A DNA stretch of 64,000 nucleotides from Parvicella tangerina (GTDB lineage: Bacteria > Bacteroidota > Bacteroidia > Flavobacteriales_D > Parvicellaceae). Under the pieces are notes generated by a model, which saw only the letters and a program-made list of their open reading frames with translations, had not been told where the DNA came from and ran no database searches. The position numbers and the translations under genes were made by a program. Where the stretch lies: contig NZ_OU015584.1 in the NCBI RefSeq assembly GCF_907165195.1, positions 2,862,978-2,926,977 of the forward strand, read 5' to 3'. This document shows positions 4,474-5,675 of this stretch, piece by piece; position 1 is the first letter of the stretch, and every line of letters begins with the position of its first letter.

Positions 4474-4806
4474 ATGCACAAATCAAATAACAAAGTACAA
4501 TTAATCGGAAATCTAGGCAAAGACCCAAAAATCATTCAATTGCACAACGGTACTTCCTTGGCAAAATTGGAGATTGCCATTAACAATGCGTATGAAACCC
4601 AATCAGGTGAGAAGATAAAGAAAACACAATGGTATACGCTTTCCGCATGGAATAAATTGGCTGAAGTAGTCAAGAATAAATTCAAAAAAGGTCAAGAAAT
4701 AAAAGTTGAGGGAAGTCTAAACACCAGAACCTACTTAGACAAAGCTGGCATTGTCAGACATATCACAGAGGTTAATTGTCATCGCATTGAATTAAACAGA
4801 GCGTAG
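4474..4806 (+). CDS. ssb: Single-stranded DNA-binding protein (short paralogue 1)
   Basis: A 110-residue OB-fold protein with the SSB signature: NKVQLIGNLGKDP at residues 6-18, the TQWYTLSAWNKLAE block near 50-65, then KGQEIKVEGSL. It ends right after the OB fold (IELNRA) and lacks both the flexible linker and the acidic DDDIPF-type tip through which housekeeping SSB recruits replication and repair partners. It should bind ssDNA but not those partners. It is paralogous to the gene at 5337; the two flank an S23-type gene. Confidence 0.9.
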   Translation: MHKSNNKVQLIGNLGKDPKIIQLHNGTSLAKLEIAINNAYETQSGEKIKKTQWYTLSAWNKLAEVVKNKFKKGQEIKVEGSLNTRTYLDKAGIVRHITEVNCHRIELNRA

Positions 4807-4840
4807 ATAAGACGCTGGACAATAGATTTTGGACGTTAGA
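4806..4840 (-). repeat. Heptanucleotide array, left copy (inverted)
   Basis: On the minus strand this reads as five consecutive 7-mers with consensus TCYAAAR: TCTAACG, TCCAAAA, TCTATTG, TCCAGCG, TCTTATC. It starts at the last base of ssb and ends about 11 bp before the S23 ATG. The same type of array follows the S23 gene in opposite orientation (5223-5271). Confidence 0.7.
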
Positions 4841-4851
4841 CTAGTTACGTG

Positions 4852-5205
4852 ATGCACAACTGTAAAGAACTTACGATTTGGTTAGACAGTTTTGAAATTG
4901 CAAAAGTTGTTTACGATTATTCTGCTCATATTCCGCAAAAGGAAGATTACGGACTAATCAGCCAAATGAGAAGATGTTCTGTATCAGTTCCGTCTAACAT
5001 TGCAGAAGGAGCCAGCCGAAGTTCAGATAAAAACTTTTGTCGCTTCCTTGAAATTGTATTGGGCTCATCATTTGAATTACAAACACAAATCGAGCTCAGT
5101 CAGGAGTTGTTCAAAATTGAATACGCAATGATTGATGAATTGTATTTGAAACTAACAAAAAACCAAAAAATGATACGCAGCCTGATCAACAAACTAAGAC
5201 TATAA
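4852..5205 (+). CDS. Four-helix-bundle protein (S23 / 23S rRNA intervening-sequence family)
   Basis: A 117-residue helical protein with the family core QMRRCSVSVPSNIAEGASR (residues about 41-59), followed by FCRFLEIVLGSSFELQTQIE. The family was named from proteins encoded in intervening sequences of 23S rRNA genes; most members, including this one, are free-standing, and related folds serve as Avd accessory proteins of diversity-generating retroelements. Its function here is unknown. A GTG directly before the ATG (4849) is an alternative start. The gene lies between two ssb paralogues and is bracketed by inverted heptamer arrays, which suggests it moved in as a unit. Confidence 0.85.
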   Translation: MHNCKELTIWLDSFEIAKVVYDYSAHIPQKEDYGLISQMRRCSVSVPSNIAEGASRSSDKNFCRFLEIVLGSSFELQTQIELSQELFKIEYAMIDELYLKLTKNQKMIRSLINKLRL

Positions 5206-5222
5206 ATCACAGAAGCCCAGAT

Positions 5223-5271
5223 TCCAAAATCCAACGTCAAGCGTCTAAAGTCTAAAATCAAATATCCAAAT
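5223..5271 (+). repeat. Heptanucleotide array, right copy
   Basis: Seven uninterrupted 7-mers: TCCAAAA, TCCAACG, TCAAGCG, TCTAAAG, TCTAAAA, TCAAATA, TCCAAAT. The consensus is TCYAAAR, the same as the left array but in inverted orientation. It begins 17 bp after the S23 stop codon. The region encodes no long frame. Confidence 0.8.
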
Positions 5272-5336: not shown

Positions 5337-5675
5337 ATGAATCATTTAAGAAACAGAGTTCAATTAATCGGAAACCTAGGTCAAAACCCTGAAGTCATTA
5401 ACCTTGAAAGCGGAAAATCACTAGTTAGAATGACCATTGCAACGAATGAGACTTACAAGAATCAAAAAGGTGAAACGGTGAAAGAAACCCAATGGCATAA
5501 CGTGGTTGCATGGGGCAATCAAGCAAAAATTGCTGAGCAATACCTCACAAAAGGAAAAGAGATCTGTATTGAAGGTAAATTGAGTAACAGAAGCTACACA
5601 GATAAAGATGGTGTAAAGCGCTACATTACTGAGATCGTTTGTCAGGAACTGCTCATGCTAGGAAGCAAAAAATAA
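5337..5675 (+). CDS. ssb: Single-stranded DNA-binding protein (short paralogue 2)
   Basis: A 112-residue OB-fold SSB (NRVQLIGNLGQNPEV, then TQWHNVVAWGNQAKIAEQYL, then KGKEICIEGKLSNRSY). It is clearly homologous to the gene at 4474 in both sequence and length. Like its partner it stops at the end of the OB fold (LMLGSKK) without the acidic C-terminal tip. A strong intrinsic terminator follows at 5724. Which of the two, if either, is the replicative SSB cannot be judged; a full-length ssb elsewhere in the genome is likely. Confidence 0.9.
   Translation: MNHLRNRVQLIGNLGQNPEVINLESGKSLVRMTIATNETYKNQKGETVKETQWHNVVAWGNQAKIAEQYLTKGKEICIEGKLSNRSYTDKDGVKRYITEIVCQELLMLGSKK

Follow-up and report, generated by a model that had tools for sequence, protein, structure and literature searches.

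The described systems that most resemble the locus analysed here are the intervening sequences of 23S rRNA genes in Coxiella and Leptospira, which contain an S23 open reading frame (ORF; PF05635) between complementary bounding sequences. In passages of Warrier et al. (PMC4990558), the Coxiella element has three tandem heptamers before its S23 ORF (two in some strains), has complementary termini and is excised by RNase III. The same passages state that PF05635 proteins have no known function and describe the 2gsc protein as a homopentamer, while a passage of another paper gives PF05635 and the DGR protein Avd as homologous (PMC10053308).

Short arrays of heptamers have also been described away from rRNA genes. 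Cyanobacterial heptanucleotide repeats are named STRR (PMC5088731), and TAACTGA heptamers are described in a passage by MacGregor (PMC4679880). According to passages of Rehm et al. (PMC4692102), Xanthomonas GGGAATC heptamers come mostly in four units and form 70 and 75 inverted pairs, and Nostoc has similar repeats with few inverted pairs. These passages treat them as simple sequence or quadruplex repeats that are generally unassociated with mobile elements. In Xanthomonas, 83% of the heptamer repeats of Xcc lie in the same gene context in Xac, an argument against frequent movement there, and the main text makes no mention of S23 (PMC4692102). Our literature search, at the level of titles and abstracts plus passages and with few subscription journals and preprints, found no report of a connection between S23 and heptamer arrays outside rRNA.

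The window, the whole stretch of DNA analysed, is 64 kb of the Parvicella tangerina genome. It contains an intact S23 (23S_rRNA_IVP) gene encoding a four-helix bundle of 117 aa (4852–5205, plus strand; PF05635, E = 2.7e-31), which lies between two ssb paralogues on the same strand, ssb1 upstream (4474–4806; PF00436, E = 3.4e-26) and ssb2 downstream (5337–5675; PF00436, E = 6.7e-35). An earlier note on this DNA had placed five minus-strand heptamers (4806–4840) and seven plus-strand heptamers (5223–5271) around the S23 gene, and both arrays can be read directly at those positions. The left array comprises, on the minus strand, TCTAACG, TCCAAAA, TCTATTG, TCCAGCG and TCTTATC, and the right array, on the plus strand, TCCAAAA, TCCAACG, TCAAGCG, TCTAAAG, TCTAAAA, TCAAATA and TCCAAAT. 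The right array has a lag-7 identity of 0.69, a value reached by none of 20,000 shuffles, and no other lag-7 segment of the window scores as high (20; runner-up, 12). The left array is worn, with a lag-7 identity of 0.46 (shuffle p = 0.012) and a lag-7 segment score that never attains 9. The inverted orientation that the note proposed holds, with 19 of 24 bp identical between the arrays, a score matched by 3 of 5,000 random 35-mers from the window. The consensus is nearer TCYARMR than the TCYAAAR given in the note, and the left array has the consensus TCYARMR on the minus strand.

The locus therefore shares with the rRNA intervening sequences an S23 ORF with complementary bounding sequences and, as in Coxiella (PMC4990558, in the passages cited above), tandem heptamers beside that ORF, but it lies between protein genes and not inside a 23S rRNA gene. 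S23 is the sole gene between the arrays, with no transposase, recombinase, nuclease or reverse transcriptase gene. A congener (L124) has a tandem ssb pair separated by a 38-bp spacer, without element or array. By reading, the gene downstream of this pair is the counterpart of the gene after ssb2 in the window, and the spacer is similar to the host DNA to the right of the window element. The L124 arrangement supports the proposal that the block was inserted between the ssb genes. We conclude that the block is probably a one-gene mobile element of about 0.45 kb, an S23 element, of the same kind as the S23-encoding 23S rRNA intervening sequences. It would have inserted directly behind the ssb1 stop codon (TAG, 4804–4806), the final base of which is the first base of the left array, and transcription of ssb probably reads through into it.

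The AlphaFold model of the window S23 protein (pLDDT 95.6) is a four-helix bundle, and its matches in the PDB include 2gsc, which is the S23 protein of Xanthomonas campestris xcc0516, and 2rld, with five chains each. A more distant similarity in fold is to chains D, C and E of 8ube and 8ub7, two entries for DGR ribonucleoproteins; we take these chains to be Avd (TM-score 0.73–0.76; Foldseek E-values 0.33–0.66). In contrast to a DGR, however, there is no reverse transcriptase near the window element: the RVT_1 matches in P. tangerina are at 1.88 and 3.94 Mb, and the element is at 2.87 Mb. The S23 family is carried by 27 of the 60 genomes searched, P. tangerina included, which has nine PF05635 genes. 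RVT_1 matches are found in 11 of these 27 carriers and in 4 of the 33 non-carriers; a reverse transcriptase is thus enriched in carriers, but with 16 carriers lacking a match we rejected it as an obligatory partner of S23. The S23 most similar to that of the window among the relatives (61% identity, branch support 98) belongs to a congener (L012), where its gene follows that of a thiolase and its word is related to the window's. A search of phage records with the S23 protein gave no match. We tried 15 pairs of S23 genes for dN/dS, of which three were saturated and one (L306/L322) had no synonymous change. Ten of the 11 remaining pairs gave ratios of 0–0.17, and one pair with few changes gave 0.56. 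The S23 ORF is under purifying selection.

We extended the analysis of the arrays to other S23 loci. The flanks of the P. tangerina S23 genes are mostly periodic arrays of differing words (for example TTAGCAC, GTAAAAC and TTGATAG), so our scoring was based on the period instead of the word. Among 78 of 94 distinct S23 ORFs from P. tangerina and its relatives, after exclusion of incomplete and short-flanked ORFs, autocorrelation at lag 7 is 0.385 upstream and 0.418 downstream, whereas most other lags give about 0.30. The signal is echoed at lags 14, 21 and 28, and there is a second peak at lag 8. The best lag is 7 in 35 upstream and 43 downstream flanks of the 78 and 8 in a further 17 and 16. 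Segments scoring at least 12 in the 156 flanks number 56 at lag 7 and 18 at lag 8, compared with 0–3 at each of lags 4–6 and 9–12. In a spaced 360-kb sample of P. tangerina, by contrast, segments of this score number one at lag 7 and two at lag 8, as against 19, 9 and 12 at lags 6, 9 and 12; the lag-7 segment and one of the lag-8 segments are arrays between neighbouring genes without S23.

The same period is seen more widely. In 78 loci with sufficiently long flanks, taken from the best 80 of at least 587 public-genome loci that match one peptide pattern, lag 7 is best in 53 upstream and 51 downstream flanks. By record title, these best 80 loci are mostly from Bacteroidota but also from Planctomycetota, Patescibacteria, Acetothermia/Bipolaricaulota, KSB1 and Campylobacteraceae, although many are from metagenome bins, in which single taxon assignments may be wrong. 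In 22 loci on viral contigs, counting near-duplicates, lag 7 is best in 20 upstream and 14 downstream flanks. We then assembled 168 distinct elements, leaving out seven near-duplicate viral loci, repeated proteins, and short-flanked and short ORFs. A 7- or 8-bp array with a score of at least 9 is present on at least one side in 140 of these and on both sides in 77, and neither side has such an array in 28. S23 genes thus bear arrays far more often than chance would give, an association that the earlier note had proposed to test for, and the S23-free alleles described below mostly lack arrays. The single TCYAAAR motif that the note regarded as the S23-linked signal was rejected, because the word differs from element to element; what is conserved is the period of 7 (or 8) bp, the inverted layout and the length. 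The idea of a mobile or repeat-recognising module is thus supported in part, but not in the form of one motif common to S23 elements.

The two arrays of an element are matched to each other. When the left flank is compared with the inverse of the right flank in the 78 loci of the first set, the mean score is 25.3 for flanks of the same element and 15.5 for flanks of different elements (maximum of 10,000 permutations, 17.7), and in 47 of the 78 loci the element's own match exceeds the 95th percentile of mismatched pairs. Unit length also agrees, with 7/7 in 63, 8/8 in 13 and a mixed arrangement in one of the 77 two-array elements. The strand read inwards is G-rich: in the 168-element set, G exceeds C in 83 left arrays and is exceeded in 12, and on the right C exceeds G in 91 and is exceeded in 17. 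The upstream gene is codirectional with S23 in 64 of 70 loci called and the downstream gene in 57 of 72, as raw counts with no baseline.

One member of the family lies within an rRNA gene itself. On an Azospirillum plasmid, an S23 element (L313) with inverted GGACAGA-type heptamer arrays is located inside a large-subunit rRNA gene (RF02541, 2529 bits), and the classical rRNA intervening sequences thus look like the same kind of thing. Taken with the heptamers of the Coxiella sequence, the L313 arrays indicate that intergenic and ribosomal elements have a common layout. The intergenic elements could accordingly be mRNA intervening sequences, in which the arrays are kept as a transcript stem that RNase III cuts around the S23 ORF and any binding of S23 to the arrays is secondary. 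The position of L313, the excision of the Coxiella sequence and the codirectional neighbours all agree with this explanation, as does the RNA duplex energy, which is −37.0 kcal/mol for matched left and right arrays and −25.0 kcal/mol for mismatched ones. However, the mismatches between arrays in the 168-element set comprise 132 G.U and 141 A.C, and duplex strength does not differ between sense and antisense (paired p = 0.89). With G.U not in excess over A.C, we rejected selection for a sense-RNA stem; the S23-element arrays differ from what the rRNA intervening sequences would lead one to expect in showing no sign of such selection. The lack of an RNA signature in the mismatches points instead to matching that is kept at the DNA level or by copying. 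In addition, three plasmid elements (L303, L304 and L305) lie between genes of the opposite strand. We consider an mRNA intervening sequence unlikely.

The arrays could alternatively act as three-frame translation stops that allow the element to enter gene 3′ ends harmlessly, because a period of 7 or 8 bp places the stop codon of a word in all frames. Of 42 left arrays, 31 begin within 15 nt of the upstream stop codon, and in one plasmid locus (L309) the cas10 stop lies inside the left array. Sense-strand left arrays have stops in all frames in 55 of 103 cases, against 44.2 expected from shuffled words, but this enrichment is small and the antisense control has a similar excess (29 against 20.6). 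We rejected the stop cassette as weak on these grounds; it also leaves the match between right and left arrays unexplained, and we regard it as highly implausible.

Returning to the S23 element as a mobile unit, the arrays have a median length of 32–33 nt, or 4.6–4.7 heptamers, and the 8-bp arrays centre on 35 nt. A pentameric ring would match arrays of this size at one unit for each subunit. In the mechanism that we propose, the ends of the element would be the two inverted arrays, each repeating about five times a word that is 7 bp long, or 8 bp in some clades, and that differs between elements. A ring of five S23 subunits would bind one array, with about one unit per subunit, and binding to both arrays would mark the ends of the element and pair them. 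Host or other functions acting in trans would then let the element, and derivatives of it that lack S23, insert behind or near gene 3′ ends, the insertion route presumably not being encoded in the element. The copies may be kept similar to one another by slippage within an array and by strand switching from one array to the other.

Unit length, 7 or 8 bp, changes 16 times on the S23 tree, against a minimum of 21 in 300 shuffles, and the suggestion in the earlier note that S23 might act on the heptamers fits this association. Word similarity rises from about 0.04 below 45% S23 identity to 0.37 at 70–80%, with words tracking S23 similarity only above about 60% identity. Across all pairs the Mantel correlation between word and S23 protein (rho = 0.086) was below the largest of 500 permutations (0.103). 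Common descent explains both the clustering of unit length and the trend of word with identity as well as recognition does. In one group with S23 proteins that are 70–72% identical and the same heptamer (L164 compared with L191 and L177), both L164 arrays are turned round with respect to the gene, an arrangement that inversion of the interior would produce.

Plasmids provided comparisons with S23-free alleles. We examined 12 of 20 plasmid records with S23 hits, ten of them cyanobacterial; 11 of the 12 loci have an array of score at least 9 on one side or more and eight on both sides, and one (L303) has none. Host gene names outside annotated records are from reading of translations, with sdhA, sdhB, thiolase, succinyl-CoA ligase and the Mur ligases checked against Pfam. 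S23-free alleles with 85–95% identity were available for four host sites, with one to three records per site. At the first site the element (L310) is inside a host ORF and has displaced its last 12 codons: the host protein now ends in MQKQS, whereas the S23-free allele L320 runs 12 codons further to end in ELDDF (the empty-site comparison being with L319–L321), and the displaced tail is partly readable as DNA beyond the far side of the element. At the second, L309 lies between cas10 and cmr3 with its right array abutting the next start codon, and the S23-free counterpart (L314) has a short spacer without an array. The third element (L304) is between nrdA and nrdB on the opposite strand, and the S23-free allele (L318) has no array. 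At the fourth site, elements L306 and L322 enter at the stop codon of a TraM-like gene. One of three S23-free alleles here (L315) has no array, another (L316) has arrays of a related word and the third (L317, 1680–1720) has an AATTCAA array directly behind the TraM-like gene, with another word and another downstream gene. No target duplication was evident at the plasmid sites, where short stretches of spacer differ or are missing.

The arrays thus mostly come with the S23 element. This bears on the possibility that S23 genes parasitise existing heptamer repeats, having inserted into, or been kept beside, ordinary genomic arrays. Arrays without S23 do occur in P. tangerina and at the TraM site (L316 and L317), and passages of Rehm et al. 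(PMC4692102) record those of Xanthomonas and Nostoc with no S23 link. Nevertheless, S23-free alleles have no array at three of the four host sites, nor does L315 at the fourth; two-sided arrays are mutually inverse and equal in unit length; and the 360-kb P. tangerina sample has one lag-7 array that scores at least 12. This explanation is weakened by these observations and now seems very unlikely.

Two cyanobacterial plasmid S23 genes in cas operons (L302 and L309) bear inverted arrays. A survey of cas loci lists, in the passage available, 18 S23-family genes as a function of interest (PMC3936711). The S23-free allele of L309 fits these genes being passengers rather than CRISPR components.

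Genomic copies of the words are not restricted to S23 genes. The window word has 58 four-unit matches at 13 places in P. tangerina (runs less than 3 kb apart merged), whereas its reversed control has none. An S23 match is present at the window's place alone, and some of the other 12 are mini-elements. The outcome that the note had named as counting against it, arrays with no S23 association, is thus seen in part for this word. At 3161 kb, two gene-less mini-elements (L351, 1030–1720) that are 81% alike flank a Mur-ligase C-domain ORF by murD-like and ftsW-like genes; each consists of five heptamers, a loop of 16–19 bp and five inverted heptamers. A third pair of inverted window-word arrays is at 3204 kb. 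MITEs and REP/RAYT systems are short inverted elements dispersed in trans by the protein of another gene. S23 elements share with them such dispersed gene-less inverted relatives, but their ends are arrays of variable word and not a fixed palindrome, and the window arrays enclose no transposase gene. The words of two other S23 loci (L001 and L007) are likewise dispersed in P. tangerina, with reversed controls giving two (L001-type) and three (L007-type) matches, and that of the P. tangerina S23 L002 is not dispersed in that genome.

The window word also accompanies other genes. Arrays of it lie near one end of a multicopy ORF family of about 230–266 aa (MAKxKG..G.xGxxxF..NG; L345, L347–L350 and L353), two members of which had no Pfam match, and direct arrays flank a tyrosine recombinase gene (L346, 1011–2056). 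By reading, the word is found beside an MNT/HEPN pair as well. The arrays are therefore not exclusive to S23. Three stretches of P. tangerina are rich in arrays (C1, 2525900–2527700, 3913100–3915100 and 1617100–1617400), and in the first of these, three different heptamer words are next to one another, as nesting of elements would produce.

S23 elements resemble IS elements and transposons in having empty sites in relatives (L124; L319–L321, L314, L315 and L318), but they differ in having no transposase or recombinase gene of their own and no near-identical copies within a genome. In 19 of the 20 genomes that encode at least two full-length S23 proteins, the best within-genome identity is 0.21–0.66, and in the remaining one it is 0.82. 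With copies this dissimilar, transposition was not caught in the act. Moreover, the six S23 proteins at a site between sdhA and sdhB fall within one clade and five of the nine at a thiolase site within another, a distribution also compatible with ancient vertical inheritance followed by losses. The S23 genes could thus be old, immobile residents that were gained long ago at few sites and often lost, the arrays being slippage by-products in tolerated spacer. Purifying selection on S23 and the conserved positions of the Xanthomonas repeats (PMC4692102, in part) favour this explanation, together with the site-linked clades and the low within-genome identity. It does not readily account for the insertion within a coding sequence of which closely related plasmids have S23-free alleles, nor for the sdhA–sdhB element being present in two of the four species examined in the window's genus and absent in two. 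At the thiolase site in P. tangerina, a different S23 with 8-bp arrays is followed by what is left of an L012-type S23, its C-terminal part and its right array, and the layout is common to several phyla, plasmids, viral contigs and a 23S rRNA gene. We therefore regard immobile residents as distinctly unlikely.

Set beside the cyanobacterial and Xanthomonas GGGAATC repeats, the S23 arrays share the 7-bp period and the small number of units, and the cyanobacterial plasmid S23 genes are themselves flanked by heptanucleotide arrays. It is possible, and we suggest it tentatively, that S23 elements form an unrecognised mobile class spanning many phyla, plasmids, viral contigs and rRNA genes, in which a pentameric ring reads inverted, variable 7- or 8-nt arrays at about one unit per subunit and gene-less derivatives are mobilised. 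Such a class could be the source of many cyanobacterial, Xanthomonas and Bacteroidota heptanucleotide repeats and the parent of the S23-type rRNA intervening sequences, with the cas-operon S23 genes as passengers. Three puzzles would then be joined: the rRNA intervening sequences, the heptanucleotide repeats of cyanobacteria and xanthomonads, and the scattered S23 genes of operons, among them those in cas loci. Tying PF05635 to inverted arrays of constant period and variable word gives the family a testable nucleic-acid partner, and the match between a pentamer and about five units per array yields a concrete structural prediction. The elements would also point to mobility without a known transposase.

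A second gene family has flanks of a comparable kind. GxxExxY (PF13366) genes are often bordered by inverted quasi-periodic arrays of 8–10 bp (L228–L253), and one lies behind ssb in a congener (L125, 1–820). The possibility that the same heptamers also serve these genes was rejected, as the best period is 8–10 bp in 11 upstream and 13 downstream flanks and 7 bp in none and one, respectively (23 of 26 loci used). The GxxExxY family is present in 11 of the 60 genomes, all 11 of which also carry S23.
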